The notes beneath the pieces were generated by a model. The model made no database searches, had not been told where the DNA came from, and was given only the letters and a program-made list of their open reading frames with translations. From the NCBI GenBank assembly GCA_023807065.1, contig JAJJLU010000377.1:1-61719 (forward strand): a stretch of 61,719 nt of DNA, in the 5' to 3' direction. The stretch is from Isotricha intestinalis (Eukaryota; Ciliophora; Litostomatea; Vestibuliferida; Isotrichidae). Below, piece by piece: positions 8,195 through 52,456 of the stretch; position 1 is the stretch's first letter, and the number at the start of each line of letters is the position of its first letter. The translations under genes were made by a program, and so were the position numbers.

Positions 8195-11100
8195 ATGAAA
8201 TTATATAGACATGTCCGAGGAAAAAGTGACACAGACTTTTTTATAGATAAAATATATTTAGATAACATTCATTATAATATGAAATCATATAAAAATTCTT
8301 TATCTGAAAATTTATCAGATTCAGATTTAGAAATAAAATCATATAATCCAGGAAGAAATAAAAAAAAATTAGGAGTTAAAAGATATTCTATTGAATATGT
8401 TCCCAATATTCAAATTTCAGATATTAAAGATGAATTCAATCAATTTATTATTCATGCTCTTCTCTTTAAAAAACATTTTGATGATGATGTAATTGAAGGA
8501 TTTATTTTATCACAGAAAACTTATTTAGATATTATTTTAAAAATTATGAGAGAATTAATTAGAAGATTCAAATTAAATTATGATAAAGGAGATAATTTAA
8601 TTTTAACTTCTTTATTGAATGATAAAAAAGATCAAGATTCTGAATTAATTGAAAAAATAGATAAATTTGATAATGTTCTTCAAATAATGATTGAAACACA
8701 ACCAAAAGATTATTATAGAGAAGTTAAAAATATGATATTAAATGAATTTGAGAAAAGTAGATATCAAATAGCACAATTTTTAGATAATTATCAAGGAAAA
8801 AAAAAGATTTTAATGGCTGATCAAGCATCGAAATTTTTTTCAAATCATAGACAAAATAGTAATAATATTTTAGAAGATAATTTTGATTCAATGAATAATG
8901 AAGAAATTACTGCATTTATTGTTTCAATATCACAAATTGTTTTATTTTCAATGAGTACAATTTCTTTTAAATTAGATTATTATTCTTTAACTATGAATTG
9001 TTTAATGGAAAAAATAAAAACATATATATCAACTTTTATAGAATCTTCAAGAAAAGAATATGCAATAATTCAAAAATTAAAAGGTAATCAAATGAAAACA
9101 TTATATTTTATTGATAGAATAATTTTTCTTTCAAGAACTTTTACTACTTTATTATATGGAGACAATGAAAGATTAAATTTAAATATTTTTTCCTCAAGTG
9201 GAAAATATATATTAAATAATTTTATAGAAATAATTTCGAAATGTGAAAATTTAGTTTTAACTTCAGATGAAAAATTAGAAAAAAGAAGAGCAATGTTAAA
9301 TAATACAATATTTTATTCAAATAAAAAAGAAATTTCTCAATATAAACAATATCTTCAAATTTTTTTTTTTAATAATTCAAATATGAATTCTGAATTAGAA
9401 CAACAATTTAAATTTTATTTTAATACAAAATTAATTGTTTGGAAAGATGTAACTTTAACAGTTGATTCAAAAAAATCTTTTGAAGTATGTAGAATATGTG
9501 AACAACAAGTTCCAATAAATGAATTTATATTACATGTAAATTATTGTAAAGAACAAAAAATATTTTATAATCAAATGAAATTAGTAAAAACAAATTTAAT
9601 GAAATATATTCAAATGTTAGAATATTTTAAAGATTCTTTCTCAATAAAAGATAACAATATATTTTCTCCAAATAATAATTTAATGAAATTTTTTAATAAA
9701 AAAAGTGGAAGTTCATTTTTAGGAACTCCAGATTTTCTTTTATTAAATAAAAAATCATCAAATTCAAATAAAAAATCAGATTTGAAATTTTTAGATAACT
9801 TAATAAAAATATATGAATATGAAAGTGGATTACCATTTGATAATTATGAAAGAAATCCAAAAGAAATATCTCATTTACAATCAATGTTATATTTTACATT
9901 ATTTTTATTTATAGAAAATCAGAAAGAAATAAACTTTTCAAAAGAAGTAAATGAAATATTAGGAGGAATATTTCAAGTATTAAGTAAGAAAATAACAAGT
10001 ATAGAATATATATTAACAGTAATGGAAAGTAAAGCAAAGAGTAATATTTATAATTTAAATAGTACAACAATGTTAACTAAATCTTGTAGTAGAGATAATT
10101 ATATTAAATTTATTGAAAATAAAAATAGTTTACCTTTATCAAATTCTTTTTCAATATTAAGTCGATCTAATACTAAATTACCAGTTAGAAATAAAAGTTT
10201 TATTATTTCTGATGAAGGAAATTTTTCTTCTACTGTTAATACTGTTAAAAATATTTTAAGTGTTAATAGTACTATTTCTTCCCCTGCTATGAGTAATTTT
10301 TGGAAAACTAAAAATGCTACTAACATTCATCGAAATGATGAAATTAATATCTCCAATTTTTTTGATAAAAGATCACAAACTTTAGAAAAAGGAAAATGTA
10401 ATTTAATGAGGAAAAAATTTAATGAAAAAGATTTCTTTGATGATAGTTTTAGAAAGGATAGTTCTAGAAATTCTAAAAATAATGTTAAAAGTTCTTTTAA
10501 TCCTGATAATTCAAATGGTGGATTTATTTTAAGTCAAGGAAAGAAAGAATCTAAATTTTTAAATTTAAAACCAATTAAAAAAAAATCTACTGATGAATAT
10601 TGTAAATCTAATATAATAAAAAATAATTTAAATGAAAATAATAAAAAAAAAACATTTCAATTATTTCATAAAGGTAATAATAAATCTAAAGATGAAGATA
10701 AAGAAAATAAAGATGATAGTGAAGAAGAAAAAGGAAAATTAAATATAATTAATACTAAAGAAGATAGTGACAGTGATGATAATGATACTATGAATTATTT
10801 AAAGTTTTTAAAAGGAGATATTTCTAATATTTCTAATAATTCTAATCCTAACCATAATGAAATTACTAATTCACCAAGTAAAAAGAGTTTATTTCATAGA
10901 AATGATAGTGATATAAATAATAGTAATAATAATATTCGTAAAGTTAATTTTGGAAAAAAAGATGAAAATAATGATAATATAAAAGAAAATGAAAATAAAG
11001 GAAAAAAAGAAAATATTCCTTTCTTTAATATGTTAAAACATAATGTAGATACAAATTCTTCAGACAATGAAAAAACATCATTTCATAAAAAAAGTAGTTT

Positions 11101-44707: not shown

Positions 44708-46399
44708 TTATTCTGTATTGTTAATTCCAAATTTTTGACATAATTTTTCGAATAAATTTTTTAATTTTTCATTTTGTTCATTTTCATTTTGTACTTTTTC
44801 ATTAAGCATATTTTTCATTCCTTCTAATAAAAATTGTTCAGGATTAGTTTCTAATTGATTATATCTTTTTTTGTTTTTCATCATATTTTGAATAAATTTT
44901 TCACTTTGTTCAAATTTTTTTATATCTAATTCTTCATATACTTGATGTTTCTTTTGAAATTTATTTAAATCAGTTAATTTAAATATATTTTCATTGGTAA
45001 TGGAATTTCTTCTTTTTGGATTTGCACTTTCTGGAAAATAATTTTGTTTAGAAGTTAAATTTTTTTTATTTAACTCTAATAATGTAGAATCTCTTTTTGG
45101 TTGAATTGTTTTTTCTTTTTTTATATTCTGATTTATAAAATTATTATTTTGAATAATTAAATTTACATTTATTAAATTATTATCTGCCTTCAATTCTTTA
45201 TAATCTTTTCTTGATAAAAAAATATTTTGTTTACTTTCATTCTTTTCTGCTTCATTGAATTCTATTTGATTTAAATGAAATATATTTAATTTTTCATCTT
45301 CCTTTTTTAATATAGAGTTTTTTAATAATTTTTCACTTTTAATACTTTTTTTATCAACACTAATATCATTTTTTTTTTGATCTTCTTTTTTCCATTTTTC
45401 AACTTCTTCTATAATTTTTCTTTTTTTTTTTTCTGCTAATTCTAATAAACTTTGATAATTATAATAACTAACAATTAAACTTTCACTTAATTCTTCAGGA
45501 AATTCTTCTTTGATATTATTAAAATCTTCTTTTTTCAAAACTAATAAATCACAAAATCTAGAAGAGACTTTAACATTAAAAGGACATCTTTCATTAATTT
45601 CAACTAATATATCACCAAAATATTCATTTTTTCTTAAATCCATTATTTTTTTTTCAAAATAATTTTCATCTAAAAGTATAGAAATTCTCCCTCTTCTAAT
45701 AAAATAAATTTCAACTAAATATTCTCCTTTATCAATTATTTTTTCTTTTTTCATAGCTTTAATTGGTTTCATTAAATAAACAACTTTAGAAGCATATTCT
45801 AAAGAATGTTCTTTGAAAAAAACAGAATTTTGAATCAAATCTCTATGCATATTTGCAAGTAATTGAATTCTAATTCTTGAAGGTAAATCATTAATAAAAG
45901 AATTTTTTTCAACTTTATTATATCTTAAATTATTTTTAAAATGTTTAACTAATTTATAATAAAAATCTTTTGGAATATTATTTTTAGTTCTTAATTCTTC
46001 CAAAAAATTTATATTTGCTTCATATTTTGTAGTTTCATCATCTCTATTAGTTAACATTGAACCAAGAGAAGATATTGTATATGAATAAACCAATATTCCA
46101 ATAAATAATAATATACAATTATATACTTTTTCATCTATATTTGATGCTAATATATCACCATATCCTATTGTAAATATACTTGTCCAATGAAAATATAATG
46201 AATTTAAATATTTTTCTCCATTTGAATAATCCTGAATTCCCTTTTTTATCATCCAATTTTCTCCTGGATTTATTACTGCTAAAAATATCCATAAACATGA
46301 TATTGAATGTGTTATTATTATAAATATAAAAAAAAATTTTATTATTCTTTGCATAGGATCACTTAATACAATGTATCCGTTTAAAAATAAAAAATTTAA
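44708..46399 (-). CDS. Cyclic-nucleotide-type cation channel, C-terminal half of an interrupted gene
   Basis: A 563-residue partial frame when read from the 11-bp repeat at 46389-46399. It starts inside the S4-S5 linker (LFLNGYIVLSDP), then S5 (IIKFFFIFIIITHSISCLWIF), the pore with filter TIGYGD, S6 (FIGILVYSYTISSLGSML), a C-linker and a cyclic-nucleotide-binding-like domain (GEYLVEIYFIRRGRISILLDE). A long disordered tail follows. The GYGD filter indicates K+ selectivity. In the phosphate-binding cassette the usual FGE...R-T/S-A is FGDILVEINERCPFNV, so ligand binding may be altered. The first internal Met is at 46354, but the frame is open upstream to the breakpoint. It has no start or voltage sensor of its own; the matching N-terminal half lies at 52457-53902. 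Confidence 0.88.
   Translation of the reverse strand, partial: LNFLFLNGYIVLSDPMQRIIKFFFIFIIITHSISCLWIFLAVINPGENWMIKKGIQDYSNGEKYLNSLYFHWTSIFTIGYGDILASNIDEKVYNCILLFIGILVYSYTISSLGSMLTNRDDETTKYEANINFLEELRTKNNIPKDFYYKLVKHFKNNLRYNKVEKNSFINDLPSRIRIQLLANMHRDLIQNSVFFKEHSLEYASKVVYLMKPIKAMKKEKIIDKGEYLVEIYFIRRGRISILLDENYFEKKIMDLRKNEYFGDILVEINERCPFNVKVSSRFCDLLVLKKEDFNNIKEEFPEELSESLIVSYYNYQSLLELAEKKKRKIIEEVEKWKKEDQKKNDISVDKKSIKSEKLLKNSILKKEDEKLNIFHLNQIEFNEAEKNESKQNIFLSRKDYKELKADNNLINVNLIIQNNNFINQNIKKEKTIQPKRDSTLLELNKKNLTSKQNYFPESANPKRRNSITNENIFKLTDLNKFQKKHQVYEELDIKKFEQSEKFIQNMMKNKKRYNQLETNPEQFLLEGMKNMLNEKVQNENEQNEKLKNLFEKLCQKFGINNTE
46389..46399. repeat. Left copy of 11-bp direct repeat (insertion boundary)
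   Basis: AAAAAATTTAA on the plus strand. To its left is host channel sequence (C-terminal half); to its right is insert sequence. On the minus strand it encodes Leu-Asn-Phe in the channel frame, the same residues encoded by the right copy. Confidence 0.75.
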
Positions 46400-46803
46400 T
46401 ATTGATATTAAATTGTTTGAATAAATTACTAAAGTAATTTATTAAATCCTTAACAGTGAAAATATTTTTATTATGTAATTCCATTAATAATTTATATACT
46501 TTGATAGATATAAAATATTTATGTTTCCTAAAATTAATAATTGAATTAATACCTTCTAAAAATATTTTTTGAATATATATAAATAAAATATTATTCATTT
46601 TTTGACAAAAAGCATTTTTTTTGTAAAAATCAATTAAAATATTATATAACTTTTTTCTAAAAAAATGCATTTTATAAAAAGATTGTATTAAAATAACTTT
46701 TTTTGAATCATAAATTCCTTTAATAGAATCTTCTTTCATATTTCTAACCTTTTCAATTAAAACTTTTTCTAAACTAATAACATTACCTCTCCATGATAAA
46801 CCT
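46400..46803 (-). pseudogene. Truncated open frame with IQ-like basic helix, cut at the insertion boundary
   Basis: An open frame of about 134 codons, bounded upstream by TAA and running into the left insertion boundary, where it loses its natural end. A Met occurs at 46739. The segment VILIQSFYKMHFFRKKLYNIL resembles an IQ or amphipathic calmodulin-binding helix, repeated more weakly downstream. No family can be assigned. It belongs to the inserted DNA and is probably the 5' part of a gene broken at the junction. Confidence 0.4.
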
Positions 46804-46862
46804 TATTTATTTTTTTATTTTTAATATTTACATTATTATATAATAATTTTTCATTTATTATT

Positions 46863-46900
46863 TATTTTCATTAATATTTTCATCAATATTAATGAAAATA
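46863..46900. repeat. Perfect inverted repeat, 16-bp arms, 6-bp loop
   Basis: Arms TATTTTCATTAATATT and AATATTAATGAAAATA are perfect reverse complements separated by TTCATC. It lies inside the insertion between two broken minus-strand genes. It could be a transcription-end hairpin, a cruciform-forming site or a chance A/T palindrome; the length and absence of mismatches make it worth noting. Confidence 0.7.
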
Positions 46901-46902
46901 TT

Positions 46903-47180
46903 TTATGAATTACAATTTGGTAGTAAATTTGTTTCATTTATTTTTTGCATAGAAATATTATTTCTAAAATCATTTTCTATTGAATTAGTAAATTTTTCAT
47001 AATTTGGTAAAAGTATTTGGCTTAAACTTCTTCTTTTATTACTTATTTTTTTTTATTTGAAATATCAAAAGAGTAAACTACTGTTGATGATGAAATTATT
47101 AATCTTTTTTTATTTTTATTTACTTTCTTAATTTGATTGACATCATTTACAAAAATATTTTTGTTAAGAGGATTAAACAT
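46903..47180 (-). pseudogene. Small broken ORF, one frameshift; family unknown
   Basis: From ATG at 47178-47180 the minus strand reads about 45 codons (NPLNKNIFVNDVNQIKKVNK, then IISSSTVVYSFDIS). It shifts frame in the T-run at 47047-47054, then reads about 47 more (NKRRSLSQILLPNYEKFTNS) to TAA at 46903-46905. Both pieces have protein-like composition. The single shift falls in a homopolymer, so a sequencing error could explain it. No homology is recognised. Confidence 0.35.
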
Positions 47181-47260
47181 AAAATTTATTTTTTTATTTT
47201 CCTATAAAAAAATAATAAAAATAATTATACTTTTTAAAACCATTTTGGAATTTTTAAAAA

Positions 47261-47937
47261 ATGGATTTACAAGAACAAAATTTATCACATATAAAAATTA
47301 AACAATCTGATGAAATATTCTATTTTGAACATAATGTTTATAATGAAAAATATTTAGGTGAATATATTTCTAAAGAAAGATTAGATTAGATAATTACAGA
47401 ATGTGAGAAAATTGTATGTATGTGTCATATTAAAAAGTCACAATATGAAAAACAAGACATTCAAAGATTTGTTTATATTTTATCATTAATATAAGTTTTT
47501 TCTTTTATTATTTATTTTATAATACTTTATTATTTTCCAAAAATAAAAAAAAGAAGAAAGATGTATTTATTTGAAATTTACTTTGGTGTTTTTGGATATA
47601 TAATCTTATTAATAATTATCATTTATAATGCTTTTAAAAAGAAAAATAATGAAAAATTTGTTGATGAATTTATTTATAATGATTTAACAAAATATTTTAC
47701 AAGTTTAAAAACCTTATTTAAAAACATTACTTTTAAATATAATAAAGAAAGGAAAAATAATTTTATATTATCCTAAACATAAAGATAATATTATTCAAAT
47801 AAAAATTGATAAAAAAAGTGAAATTATTTTAGAAAAAGAAAGAAATTATCTTCCTACTAAAGAAAGTGTAGAAAACTTTATACCAAATGAAGATAAAATT
47901 ACCTAATTAGAAAATCATTTTTTTTCCTCATTCTAAT
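47261..47937 (+). pseudogene. Broken ciliate-type membrane-protein gene
   Basis: From ATG 47261 the frame reads MDLQEQNLSHIKIKQSDE and onward, with TAG at 47387-47389 and TAA at 47492-47494. It then has two hydrophobic helices (FSFIIYFIILYYFP and GVFGYIILLIIIIYNAF) and a charged tail, shifts frame near 47755 (new frame LYYPKHKDNIIQIKIDKKSE), and passes one more TAA before ending. The two-helix hairpin with charged flanks suggests a small membrane protein. At least four lesions make it non-functional under the standard code. At each stop a Gln codon would fit, but this cannot be proven without a homologue. Confidence 0.5.
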
Positions 47938-48277
47938 TTCCAAATTAATTTAATTCAAAAATAAAGGTATGATTATTATTATTACTTTGGTAACATATTT
48001 TTATTTATTTCCTATTTTAAATTAATTATCAAAATATAAATAATATATAGTAAAATATATATTAAGTCATTTCATTTATCAAATATTATTTTTGGTTTTA
48101 ACCATAAACAAAAAACATATAATTAATTATTATATAAATTTTATAAAATAAATTATTTTAAGAGACATAAAAAATATTAAAAATAAAAAAAAAATTAAGA
48201 CTTAAATAGACATCTTCTAAATCCTTAAATAAAAATAATAAAATAATTATTCTACAAACCTCACTCATATTTTATAT
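47938..48277. other. Non-coding stretch within the insertion
   Basis: About 340 bp of A/T-rich sequence between two broken genes. No signal recognised. Confidence 0.4.
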
Positions 48278-49121
48278 TTATTTATCTTGTGATTCAACTT
48301 CATCTTTTTTATCATTATCACGTCTTGCTTCTTCAACAGCAGAGTGTTTACTTAAAGCATCAGGATCAACAGAACCAGCAATATCCTCTGCAACATTTTG
48401 AGTACCTCCTTCTTTTTTATCCAATAATTTACCTTTTTTAAATGTTGTAGCTCTAAGACAAATAAGAAGGAAAAAGAAAGGAATACAAGCAACATCACCT
48501 AACATGATACAAAGCATAGCAAGAGGTTTAAATATAAGTTTTATATTTATCATTAACATAACCATATAGAACAGGAGAAGGACCACTAGTAACTAACATA
48601 GTTACAATGTTAGTAAGTGAGAATCCAGTACTTTTTAATCTTGGTGGAATTGATGATACAATAACACCTTGTAATATTGAAAGCATTGCTGAATTGAATA
48701 CTAAATATAAACCACAGCATATTCAGAAAGGATAAAGTCCCATAAACAATGGGAATGCTACATCAAACACTCATTCAATTAAATGAACGAATAATAAAGC
48801 ATATGATGATTTTGATGATTCATAACTTCCCATCCATGGATTTATAATTGCATTACAAAGAATACCTCCTATTGGTCCTGCTAATGCAATAATTGTATAT
48901 GAGAAGAATATTGTTGATGGGGAATTTATATCTAATATTGTTCTCATTTAATGTGCAATCCAAGTACAAATCATAATTGCGACATGTGTAAACAAGATGA
49001 AAATGGTAATTATATATATCATTTCATTTATAATCAACCAGGTCAATGTATTACAGAGCAAGAAAAACCAGATAATACATATCAAATTTGTTTTAAAATA
49101 AAAGAAAAGTTAATAAAATAA
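48278..49121 (-). pseudogene. Broken MFS transporter (spinster-like), N-terminally truncated at a telomere junction
   Basis: The minus strand reads several transmembrane helices of a major-facilitator protein: WFFLLCNTLTWLIINEM, FILFTHVAIMICTWIAH, TIIALAGPIGGILCNAII, PLFMGLYPF..ICCGLYLVF, NIVTMLVTSGPSPVLYGYVN and AMLCIMLGDVACIPFFFL, ending in a charged tail (DKKEGGTQNVAEDIA). The repeated helix pattern and the Asp/Lys loop after the fourth segment resemble spinster-type lysosomal lipid transporters. Lesions: TAA at 48948-48950, TGA at 48771-48773 and 48723-48725 (both where Trp would fit), and a frameshift near 48540. The N-terminal helices are missing; the homology runs out within about 20-30 bp of the telomere-like junction at 49141. 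Confidence 0.6.
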
Positions 49122-49140
49122 AATTTTTTTAATTATAAAA

Positions 49141-49179
49141 GGGGATTGGGATTGGGATTAGGCCCAATCCCCAATCTCC
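49141..49179. repeat. Degenerate head-to-head telomere repeat junction
   Basis: The plus strand reads GGGGATTGGGATTGGGATTAGG (49141-49162), immediately followed by CCCAATCCCCAATCTCC (49163-49179). The first half is the G-rich telomere strand of a chromosome end coming from the left; the second is the C-rich strand of one starting to the right, like positions 1-35. Together they form an imperfect palindrome of the ATTGGGG/CCCCAAT unit with several point changes. This is the expected product of a telomere-telomere fusion. Such G/C density occurs nowhere else in the window except the true telomere. Confidence 0.85.
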
Positions 49180-49254
49180 AAAAATTTATTTAATTTTTAA
49201 AATAAAAAAAATAAAAATTAGTGTTAGTTTTTTACTTATTAAATATTTTATTTA

Positions 49255-50865
49255 TCATATAAAAAAATTTTTGAATTTATTATGTTGCATTAAATTATTT
49301 TGTAAAGATTTTAATAAATAATGTAATGAAAAAATTTCTTCTTCACTTATAATTTTTTTTTTATGATCAATTAAATTTTTCATTATTTTTATTTTTACAG
49401 TTTTTCTATAATGTAAAAACCCAATTAAATAACAAAAAATATCATAATTATTTAATTTAACTCTTTGAATTAAATTATCAAAGTGAGTGTTGTTTTTATA
49501 ATAATTATTATTACTTAATTTTGAACTGTTATTATTATCAATATTTTTATATTCTTGATTATTTATATAATTATTATAAGAAATAGACTTACATTCACTA
49601 AAATTTTCATTACTTTTTGGTTCTAAATTTAATTGTTTAAAAAAGTCTTTACTTATCTTAGTTTTTCCTATTCTACTTAATTTTTTTTTATTAAAATAAT
49701 TTACAGTTTTCATTTTCAATATTGATAATAATTCTGATTTATCAAATTTATTTTTTAAAAAAAAAAAATTATTATTGAAATCTTGATTAAAATCTTTTAT
49801 GATTTGAAATTTATAAAAAATATAATTTATTATAAATGCAAATATATTCATTATTTTTATTATTCCTCCAACACTTGCTGCAACATCTTCTAACTTTTTA
49901 TATTTTCTTGAATATATATTTTGCATATTTTGCATTGATAAAGAAATTGCTCCAAAAATATTATCATTTAAATTTTCAACAGATTTTTCACTTATTATTT
50001 TTTCATTTTCATCGTATTTATATGTATTAATTTTTGTTTGTGATTCAAAAATAATTCCTGCAATTGTTTGTATTTCTAAAGTTTGAAAATTTAAAACATT
50101 TATTGTATAAGATAATGTACTATATTTATTTAAAATTTGATGAAAAAAATATTTAAAAGGATGTTTATAATTTTCAATATCTATGATATGATCAAGAAAA
50201 AAAATAGAATAACTTATTGTTGAATAAATTATATTATCTATTGTTCTATTATCATAACAATCAGAATTAATTTCACTATTATTTTGACATCTTTGAATAA
50301 AAACTCCATAATAAATTTCATTTGTATTTGAAGCTCCATGCTCAACTGTTGGATAAACAAAATCAGATTCATTAAATAAAATAACTTTTCTTAATGTACT
50401 ATTATAAAATTTTTTAATACATAAACCATTTAGAAAATAAACTATTTTATCATTTAAAAATTGATAATATTCATCTATATCACTTTTATCACATTTATCA
50501 TAAATCCAGTGATCAAAATTTGATTCATTATTATTGGCAACATAAGTTGCTTCAATTGAATTTTGAACTCCAACTAAACTAAAAGCTTTTCTATCATATG
50601 CAGAATAATTATCAAAAGAAATAAAATGGAAAAAAGATGAATGATTTAAGTAAAATACTCCTATATCGTCCACAAATCTATTATAATAAAAGGATGTTGG
50701 ATTTCTATGTAAAAAAAAATCTAAAGAAAAAATTATTGATAATATCAGTAATATAATAAATGAAATTATAGAAATAATAATTGAAAAAATTGAAGTATGT
50801 TTAGTTCTTCCTTTATAATAAAGTTTAATATCAGGAGAAATAAAATCTAAATAATAAAAAAACAT
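49255..50865 (-). CDS. Ciliate-family membrane protein with large ectodomain (intact gene inside the insertion)
   Basis: A 536-residue intact protein. An N-terminal membrane helix (ISFIILLILSIIFSLDFFL near residues 33-52) is followed by a roughly 280-residue ectodomain with Cys and N-glycosylation sites (NNNESNFDHWIYDKCDKSD, QRCQNNSEINSDCYDNRT). A block SRKYKKLEDVAASVGGIIKI precedes a second membrane segment (MNIFAFIINYIFYKF), then a cytosolic tail. The K-L-x-D-x-x-A-x-x-G-G block before the second helix is the hallmark of a large two-helix membrane-protein family in ciliates, of unknown function. It ends TGA TAA. It is the only complete gene in the insertion and lies just right of the telomere junction, as a subtelomeric gene would. 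Confidence 0.78.
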   Translation of the reverse strand: MFFYYLDFISPDIKLYYKGRTKHTSIFSIIISIISFIILLILSIIFSLDFFLHRNPTSFYYNRFVDDIGVFYLNHSSFFHFISFDNYSAYDRKAFSLVGVQNSIEATYVANNNESNFDHWIYDKCDKSDIDEYYQFLNDKIVYFLNGLCIKKFYNSTLRKVILFNESDFVYPTVEHGASNTNEIYYGVFIQRCQNNSEINSDCYDNRTIDNIIYSTISYSIFFLDHIIDIENYKHPFKYFFHQILNKYSTLSYTINVLNFQTLEIQTIAGIIFESQTKINTYKYDENEKIISEKSVENLNDNIFGAISLSMQNMQNIYSRKYKKLEDVAASVGGIIKIMNIFAFIINYIFYKFQIIKDFNQDFNNNFFFLKNKFDKSELLSILKMKTVNYFNKKKLSRIGKTKISKDFFKQLNLEPKSNENFSECKSISYNNYINNQEYKNIDNNNSSKLSNNNYYKNNTHFDNLIQRVKLNNYDIFCYLIGFLHYRKTVKIKIMKNLIDHKKKIISEEEIFSLHYLLKSLQNNLMQHNKFKNFFI

Positions 50866-50973
50866 TTTTATTGTAAATTAATTAAAATAAATTATTGTAG
50901 ACTTCAAAAAAAAAAATATTATAATTATATAAAAAAAAACAAATAAAAAAAACAATATAATAAAAAAAAAAAA

Positions 50974-52445
50974 ATGAGTTATCCAAAAGGAAACTTAGAT
51001 GGAATCCAACTTCATTATTCAGTTCATAATATATCAAGAGAAATTCCAAAAGAAGAAATTAATGATGACGAAAAAAAAAAATCTCTACAAGATACTCATC
51101 ACACTCCTTCTCATAAAATAATTCCTCAAACTGAATCAGATGAATTAAGTCAAGGAAATTCCCAAAAAAAAATTTAAATCCAAAAGATATAGAATTAGAA
51201 GAAAAAAATAAAGAAGAGAAAGTAGATGAAATACATTAATGTTTGAACAAAAAAATATATCAGTCCCAAAATTATATTGTCACTTAGCAAGACAAACAGA
51301 AAAAATATTATTAATATTAGGAATTATTGGTTCACTCGGTTCAGGAGTTTCTGGTCCTTTAATGACTGAATTATTTGGAGGAACAATTGACGATGCTTCT
51401 TCATCACAAAATGTAAGTTTTACCACAAATGCAGAATTTGATCAATTTTTTGATGCTTTTCAAGAACAAATTGATAAAATGGCAAAGAAATTTATATATA
51501 TTGGTCTTGGGATGCTTGTTGCTAATTTTTTAGCTAATTTTTGTTGGACTTATGCTGGTTTGAGAATGGTTTTTCATTTAAAGGAAAATTACTTTTCAAC
51601 TATTTTAAAACAGGAACAAGGTTGGTTTGATGAGAATAATGCATATGAATTTGCTACTAAAGTCCAAACCCAAATTGAACAAGTTGATATGGGTGTTGGT
51701 GATAAATTAGGTTGAATTATACAATCTGTTGCACAGTTAATTGATGGATTAATTATTGCTTTTATTACTTCATGGAAATTGACTTTGGTTTGTGTTTCTC
51801 CTTGTATTGTTGGTTCTGTTATATATTGGTTACTGCTTTGAAAACTAGTATTGTTTTAGGGAGAAAAACTTATGAAAAAGCAGGTGATGTTGCAGAAGAA
51901 ATGTTATATAATATTAAGACTGTTTCTTCTTTTGGTAATTTTGATTTTGAAAATGAAAGATTTGGGAAATATATTGATAGATGTCATGAATTAGATAGAG
52001 ATAAAGCTCTTAAACTTGGAGGAAGTATTGGGTCTATTATTTTCTTTTTAAATTTTACTTTCTTTATTGCTGTTTTATATGGTAACAAATTAATTATTGA
52101 TGGTCATAATAAAAGTGGTGGAATTACTGCTGGTGATGTAATGACTGTTATCTTTTCTACTTTAATGGCTATTATGAGTATTGGTGGAATTGCACTTAAT
52201 TTAAAAGTTATTCAAGAAGCTTGTACTGCATCTTCTGATTATTTTACTTTAGTTGAAAGAAAACCTGAAATTGATACTTCACATTCTAATTATGAGCCTA
52301 TTAGAGAAAGTGTTCAAGGAAGAATTGAATTTAAGAATATTACTTTTATTTATCCTTCTGATGTTAATAAAAGGAAAATATTAGAAGGTTTAAATTTAGT
52401 TATTGAACCAGGTCAAAAAGTTGCTTTATTATCAGGATGTGGTAA
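50974..52445 (+). pseudogene. ABCB-type ABC transporter, decayed and truncated in Walker A
   Basis: Reads the first transmembrane domain and start of the first nucleotide-binding domain of a P-glycoprotein-like (ABCB) exporter: ILGIIGSLGSGVSGPLMTEL, LRMVFHLKENYFSTILKQEQ then GWFDENN, RKTYEKAGDVAEEMLYNIKT, GRIEFKNITFIYPSDVNKRK, and QKVALLSGCGKK where Walker A should continue as GKST. The frame is broken by one-base deletions in short homopolymers (A-run at 51164-51172, near 51237, near 51830) and a TGA at 51713-51715. The coding stops at the insertion's right boundary and the remaining two-thirds is absent. Only two short frames begin with ATG (50974 and 51239). Confidence 0.82.
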
Positions 52446-52456
52446 AAAAAATTTAA
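52446..52456. repeat. Right copy of 11-bp direct repeat (insertion boundary)
   Basis: AAAAAATTTAA on the plus strand. To its left the ABC transporter relic stops in Walker A; to its right the N-terminal half of the channel gene begins on the minus strand. The local A-run is two bases longer than at the left copy. Confidence 0.75.

Follow-up and report, generated by a model that had tools for sequence, protein, structure and literature searches.

A gene for a cation channel of the cyclic-nucleotide-binding-domain (CNBD) type in the ciliate Isotricha intestinalis is interrupted, inside the codons of the linker between transmembrane segments S4 and S5, by 6,046 bp of inserted DNA lying between two exact copies of an 11-bp direct repeat. 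We found it in a stretch of 61,719 nucleotides (GCA_023807065.1, contig JAJJLU010000377.1, positions 1 to 61,719 of the forward strand; hereafter the window), which is contig C177 of a genome assembly of 2,153 contigs and 57.3 Mb. Removal of the insert with one repeat copy restores the gene exactly, the right junction recurs in independent records, and the insert has decayed while both channel halves are open. In our estimate there is slightly less than an even chance that this somatic insertion split the gene into two working half-genes, a voltage-sensor open reading frame (ORF) and a pore ORF. More tentatively, the two may supply the sensor and the pore of a natural KCNH/CNBD-type voltage-gated channel, made from two genes through one telomere-fused insertion and kept by selection in several haplotypes; this fuller claim we regard as possible but doubtful.

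The insertion is exact and lies in the S4-S5 linker

The channel gene, the repeat and the insert are arranged as follows.

44708..46354, minus strand: 3′ part of the channel gene, 548 codons plus stop counted from the first in-frame ATG; S5, pore, S6, C-linker and CNBD
46389..46399, no strand: left copy of the 11-bp direct repeat, AAAAAATTTAA
46400..52445, no strand: inserted DNA, 6,046 bp (6,057 bp including one repeat copy)
52446..52456, no strand: right copy of the 11-bp direct repeat, AAAAAATTTAA
52457..53902, minus strand: 5′ part of the channel gene, 482 codons, N-terminal region and S1-S4; the proteins P0112 and P0113 (see below) share the insert-derived tail of its present ORF

The repeat is maximal at 11 bp, with no longer match. 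When the segment and one repeat copy (6,057 bp) are removed, a single open minus-strand frame of 1,045 codons with start and stop is formed, and the codons at the collapsed joint read TTA AAT TTT TTA, with the frame restored precisely. The initial annotation had described a 6-kb segment that interrupts a channel gene between 11-bp direct repeats, and had proposed that its exact reversal would restore the frame and thus the gene; the joined frame bears this out. Across two random junctions, a repeat of at least 11 bp is expected with a probability of 1.1e-4 (∼200,000 random position pairs in the AT-rich window). The 11-mer itself is frequent in the window (9 occurrences on the plus strand and 10 on the minus strand) and its sequence therefore tells little; what is informative is its placement at both edges. 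A spliceosomal intron was considered and rejected, as the ambiguous joint TTAAATTTTTT contains no GT or AG and the insert holds gene pieces on both strands.

The joined core has the S1-S6 segments, pore, C-linker and CNBD of a CNBD-type six-transmembrane cation channel. Its 468 residues align to KAT3 (query residues 13-454), GORK (2-439) and KCNH2 (10-441); in the KAT3 and GORK alignments the break falls on the S4-S5 linker, and there the linker region of the window channel exceeds theirs by 11 residues. Pfam recognises Ion_trans_2, cNMP_binding and Ion_trans in the left (pore) half, and no family in the right (sensor) half scanned alone. At present the sensor-half ORF has 500 codons and ends inside the insert (stop at 52400-52402), its last 18 codons lying beyond 52457 and the first three of these within the repeat, and the first in-frame ATG of the pore half (46354-46352) stands directly before S5. 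The channel is single copy in its own genome, where the next relatives are at most 35% identical over the 468-aa core and short separate CNBD stretches reach 49%.

Residues 345-800 of the joined channel gave 37 matches in a protein search that scored the 7,992 candidates sharing most words; the length range of this search lies above that of separate C-terminal halves from inserted haplotypes. We aligned 19 of the 37 together with six paralogue fragments. The nearest seven proteins (P0001-P0007) span the entire region. P0001-P0003, which are 82-87% identical to the window channel over it, continue through the joint with 13 residues, NEKRNYLNFLFLN, that match those of the joined channel, and in P0004-P0006 (63%) the joint region is of unchanged length. 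Thus the ancestral gene was uninterrupted, and both halves come from one channel, as first supposed.

The interrupted form is present in independent records

Searching with the 500-codon sensor-half ORF, we obtained four matches (7,997 candidates scored; proteins of ∼275-875 aa could be returned). Two of them end, with small differences, in the same insert-derived tail as the window ORF: P0112 (500 aa, 95% identity over 100% of the length, from a cluster of 43) and P0113 (498 aa, 94% identity over its whole length, from a cluster of 5 whose longest contig is 22 kb). In the other direction, the ABC transporter ORF that runs over the right junction into antisense channel sequence gave 74 matches, among them P0038 (262 aa, 97% over 90%, from a cluster of 49), which has the same ABC/antisense-channel fusion as the window. 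P0112, P0113 and P0038 are cluster representatives, and the junction is claimed for these and not for every member. The right junction is thus recorded independently in both directions; the left junction is known from the window assembly alone. The three proteins differ from the window by ∼3-6%, and such divergence among haplotypes that share the right junction means that the insertion is older than their split.

The interruption is real and old, and it is no assembly error. An assembly chimera at the insert edges, named at the outset as what would overturn the interruption, could be suspected from the AT-rich genome, the low-complexity edges and the left edge, which has no independent record. 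It is excluded at the right edge by P0112, P0113 and P0038, the exact repeat is common to both edges, and we give it a negligible probability.

The insert is made of decaying gene pieces

ORFs of at least 150 aa cover 46% of the insert, compared to 84% of positions 1-46389 of the window. By BLASTN and translated searches, five gene pieces with relatives in other contigs were recognised in the insert, and four of the five are broken.

46398..47168, minus strand: G1, decayed gene with paralogues at loci L020, L024 and L036
47261..47972, plus strand: G2, decayed gene with two in-frame nonsense codons, homology lost past residue 167
48281..48962, minus strand: 3′ part of an MFS transporter gene (residues 282-510 of 510), with three nonsense codons and one frameshift
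49255..50877, minus strand: G3, 540-codon open frame (ATG at 50865) belonging to a multigene family
50974..52445, plus strand: ABC transporter fragment that breaks off in the Walker A motif where the insert ends on the right; P0038 has this junction too, and there the frame is open

G1 and G2 form a divergent pair, of which an open version exists in contig C239 (L020). Alignments of G1 stop at or near the left edge of the insert (paralogue residue 293 of 324 at 46398, 261 of 304 at 46404 and 261 of 276 at 46422), and one G1 paralogue has a bare IQ-motif match. Since G1 ends at or near the left edge and the ABC fragment is cut in Walker A, both ends of the insert have the look of arbitrary gene fragments and not of the termini of an element. 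The MFS piece has an open relative in a 510-aa ORF of C933 (L012), 87% identical over the first 142 residues of the piece; a plasmid search with the MFS piece gave no match. A further coding-looking tail lies at ∼48963-49120. G3, the sole open frame among the five, has 11 relatives with 64-67% DNA identity among the loci fetched, there are shorter matches as well, and no Pfam or NCBIfam family was found in it. Relatives were also sought by pattern in viral_contigs (5 and 11 matches) and genome_contigs (36 matches), and none of these matches encodes one.

The ABC fragment bears two frameshifts, one TGA and one in-frame 6-bp loss. In P0038 the ABC frame is open and reads ALVGESGCGK, whereas the window has an upstream frameshift and reads ALLSGCGK; decay thus went on after the insertion. 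Long ORFs of the window read well with the standard code, and a reading of TAA/TAG as glutamine in the insert genes was rejected, because the in-frame stops sit at paralogue residues Y and S (G2), Y, C and C (MFS) and M (ABC) and are therefore real nonsense changes. Two other proteins, P0043 and P0072, are 57-59% identical to the window ABC fragment and are named as Mycoplasma sp. and Clostridia metagenome-assembled genome (MAG) entries; they are probably ciliate contigs binned into bacterial MAGs.

Transposon or break-repair insertions with target-site duplication leave a short duplication flanking foreign DNA, and the window insert resembles them in this respect. However, we found no transposase among four insert ORFs (Pfam), one insert ORF (NCBIfam) and five paralogues of insert genes, and no terminal inverted repeats joining both edges among the 25 listed of 40 inverted pairs. 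Nor was there a full-length second copy: among the 40 scored of 207 candidates, pieces at 64-81% lie in different contigs and short matches reach at most 85%, and the longest insert matches elsewhere in the genome are at most 81% identical. A DNA transposon was therefore rejected for what was scanned, in keeping with the early remark that the segment is unlike a simple transposon.

Eliminated sequence or somatic insertion

Many contig ends of the assembly carry (CCCCAAT)n, a repeat shared with Entodinium (PMC6211341) and, according to the accessible part of the source, with Balantidium (PMC10978948), which makes a trichostome gut ciliate the likely source of the contigs. Both ends are capped in all nine contigs examined among C2-C10, which span 68-90 kb; the start of C1 was examined and has no telomere repeat; and the large contigs C896-C905 (n = 10) have a telomere array at one start (C901) and at none of their ends. 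The window starts with a (CCCCAAT)n telomere that resembles those of contigs capped at both ends, and its right end has no telomere. Its GC content per kb is 13-29%, and a tRNA scan across it found none.

Internal eliminated sequences (IESs) of ciliates have precise short direct repeats and are restored exactly when removed. The window insert is like them in both features, as one copy of a short exact repeat present at both ends is left on removal and the open frame and residues are restored precisely; the halves also remain open while the insert decays. The insert could then be an IES or other germline-limited segment that is removed at the 11-bp repeat in macronuclear development, and the records would have caught the germline form. 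However, macronuclear DNA is many-copy in ciliates and macronuclear copies should dominate. An IES thus predicts that excised copies dominate, and we found the opposite in the protein collection and in the assembly. As to the polymorphic insertion that the initial annotation also allowed for, the interrupted form occurs in several haplotypes (clusters of 43 and 5), and all empty forms found belong to other lineages, more distantly related. No uninterrupted protein of the same lineage was present among the 37 matches, with some caution owing to P0001 (see below), and when the assembly was searched for the empty site with two mismatches allowed, all that matched was a single AT-rich stretch in C544, which has two mismatches and which we take for chance. 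In addition, the insert differs from IESs in lying in a contig that begins with a telomere and in having gene fragments at both edges, and no other such interruption is seen in the window ORF list. The proposal in the initial annotation that this is an unexcised germline-limited segment is thus disfavoured, and we consider it improbable. In the open-access literature we found no paper on eliminated or micronuclear sequences in Litostomatea or Entodinium.

A telomere-repeat palindrome inside the insert

49141..49179, no strand: imperfect head-to-head telomere-repeat palindrome, GGGGATTGGGATTGGGATTAGG then CCCAATCCCCAATCTCC, mid-insert

This palindrome has degenerated, with two 3-G repeats, AGG and CTCC, and in this it differs from most of the telomeres seen at contig ends. 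The initial annotation mentions neither the palindrome nor the broken state of four of the five gene pieces. Genome-wide, head-to-head pairs (GGGATT, 0-30 bases, AATCCC) give 185 pattern matches, with some sites counted repeatedly and some not telomere-like, compared to 6 for a reversed control; the opposite orientation of the pair gives 15 versus 10. The exact 18-mer core GGGGATTGGGCCCAATCCCC occurs 54 times in the genome and its control 0 times. Ten of the 14 palindrome sites that we fetched are telomere-like, three with the exact core and seven altered. Such palindromes lie at L039, L041-L044, L046, L050-L053 and, near base 1500, in L006, several of them no more than 2 kb from contig ends. 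Their appearance is that of old telomere fusions or telomere-like palindromes and not of active ends, and they may be fusion scars, fragmentation sites or another palindromic element. The palindrome may also be a fragmentation site with encoded telomere seeds, a reading that the contig-end registers fit, as they also fit ordinary telomere addition to AT-rich ends.

Among the 100 genome matches listed for the channel core, internal stops occur only in C177 and C1964. The match in C1964 (5311-6102) is a decayed channel relative with 4 TAG and 8 TAA codons, ∼3.5 kb from a head-to-head telomere pair at 9604-9640; dead genes and telomere scars may thus go together.

The palindrome raises the question whether the window joins two chromosomes at their telomeres (49141-49179), the pore half ending one and the sensor half starting the other, with each broken end healed by a captured subtelomeric piece. 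The head-to-head repeats within the insert, the telomere at the window start and the existence of 68-90 kb contigs capped at both ends would fit this arrangement. In Balantidium, moreover, embedded telomeres in ∼3% of contigs and ∼48% of corrected Nanopore reads were chimeras or artefacts, as far as the accessible text of that study goes (PMC10978948). Because embedded telomeres can be artefacts, exact copies must be treated with caution, and a degenerate one like the window palindrome gives less cause for it. The window scar is degenerate, similarly altered scars exist elsewhere in the genome, and the 11-bp repeat at both edges is most simply explained by one insertion. We therefore judge two joined chromosomes to be very unlikely.

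Split-channel layout and constraint on the halves

With a break in the S4-S5 linker, two open halves and a start codon before S5, the window has the layout of a split channel. KCNH channels (Kv10.1, Kv11.1) that were severed in the S4-S5 linker, and whose pore half was given a start codon where S5 begins, yield voltage-gated currents when the halves are co-expressed and no current when the halves are injected alone, according to the sections of the study available to us (PMC4389246). The window channel is like them in the position of the cut, in the division into a sensor half and a pore/CNBD half, in the start codon at S5 and, by sequence, in belonging to the same CNBD-channel superfamily; it is unlike them in that they are laboratory constructs in oocytes, while the window holds a natural insertion known from sequence, with a longer linker region than KAT3/GORK. 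A natural voltage-gated channel encoded in two pieces, like that of the window, is the heterodimeric sodium channel of aphids, which is thought to stem from gene fission or duplication (PMC4332693, accessible part). In the window, by contrast, a visible insertion does the splitting. The aphid channel is reportedly split between repeat domains, not between the sensor and the pore of one domain. Among the papers listed in searches of the mostly open-access literature (for gene fission of channels, 10 of 1,001), judged by titles and abstract starts, none reports a natural split between sensor and pore.

Several comparisons speak for two working half-genes. We counted at least 11 disabling lesions in ∼3.6 kb of the four broken insert genes, some of which may predate the insertion, versus 0 in 3.14 kb of channel sequence (Poisson 7e-5 at equal rates). 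In addition, the amino-acid differences between the window and P0112, which are all post-insertion if there was a single insertion, fall at 17/341 positions of the N-terminal region but at 1/139 of S1-S4 (Fisher p 0.031). In S5-CNBD the window is not accelerated by distance, as window-P0004 and P0002-P0004 both differ at 101/329 positions and window-P0006 and P0002-P0006 both at 99/329. At sites where the other five proteins agree, unique changes in S5-CNBD number 8 in the window and 2, 2, 2, 4 and 15 in P0002, P0003, P0004, P0005 and P0006, and in S1-S4 they number 6 in the window and 0, 3, 0, 1 and 5 in P0002-P0006; the close pairs P0002/P0003 and P0004/P0005 depress their own unique counts, so that there is no clear acceleration of the window.

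Several points weigh against two working half-genes. The contrast is weaker between the window and P0113 (19/339 in the N-terminal region versus 4/139 in S1-S4), and the differences between P0112 and P0113 do not avoid S1-S4 (2/339 versus 3/140). Constraint after the insertion is thus weakly suggested, by the one significant comparison and for the sensor half only, and the unique-change counts are no proof of it. N-terminal divergence of 5% post-insertion versus 44% places perhaps about a tenth of the window branch after the insertion; with so small a share, a recently released C-terminal half could look the same, and the pore-half data do not separate old from recent constraint. A separate pore half needs a new promoter. 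Moreover, the short-linker rule for CNBD channels (PMC7576140) is not directly transferable to a linker 11 residues longer than in KAT3/GORK, and the word "split" is absent from the portion of that paper available to us. Finally, P0001, a single member on a 3.3-kb contig, is nearly identical to the window over its last ∼480 residues (from about residue 560; 1/228 differences in the C-tail), and its first ∼550 residues resemble P0002. A chimeric metagenome contig is the probable explanation; P0001 could otherwise be a genuine uninterrupted relative or the product of genuine recombination.

The main rival is that the same old insertion killed the gene, whose halves would be a pseudogene still without stops. 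A 6-kb interruption, an insert full of dead genes, a post-insertion divergence of ∼4-6% in the sensor half, changes in P0113 right at the break (KRGFLNFF) and the P0112-P0113 differences in S1-S4 would all be expected of a dead gene. The lesion-free channel sequence beside the broken insert genes and the avoidance of S1-S4 by the window-P0112 differences argue against it, and no broken sensor half of the same lineage was found among the four matches. We consider a dead gene unlikely, though a serious contender, and favour two working half-genes over it.

Proposed origin and significance

We infer a course of events that runs from the mechanism of insertion and its fixation to the expression, assembly and function of the halves. 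In it, a 6.05-kb piece of subtelomeric-looking DNA, composed of gene copies in decay and bearing the scar of a fusion between telomeres, would have entered the codons of the S4-S5 linker. The 11-bp direct repeat would probably have arisen when a staggered break at this point was filled in. In this ciliate lineage the insertion would be no retained IES but would be fixed or widespread in the somatic genome. The gene would thereby have been split into two ORFs, for a voltage-sensor protein (N-terminus and S1-S4) and a pore protein (S5-pore-S6-C-linker-CNBD), and both halves would be produced and would assemble with no covalent bond between them.

Should the gene be dead, the window would still document an entry of fused-telomere DNA into a ciliate chromosome that predates several haplotypes. 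Should DNA elimination remove the insert, it would be a candidate IES from a class of ciliates on whose eliminated sequences we found no paper in the open-access literature. If both proteins are produced, the window shows how a single insertion can make two channel genes out of one, and nature would have carried out its own version of the split-channel experiment by which the lever model of voltage gating was challenged.

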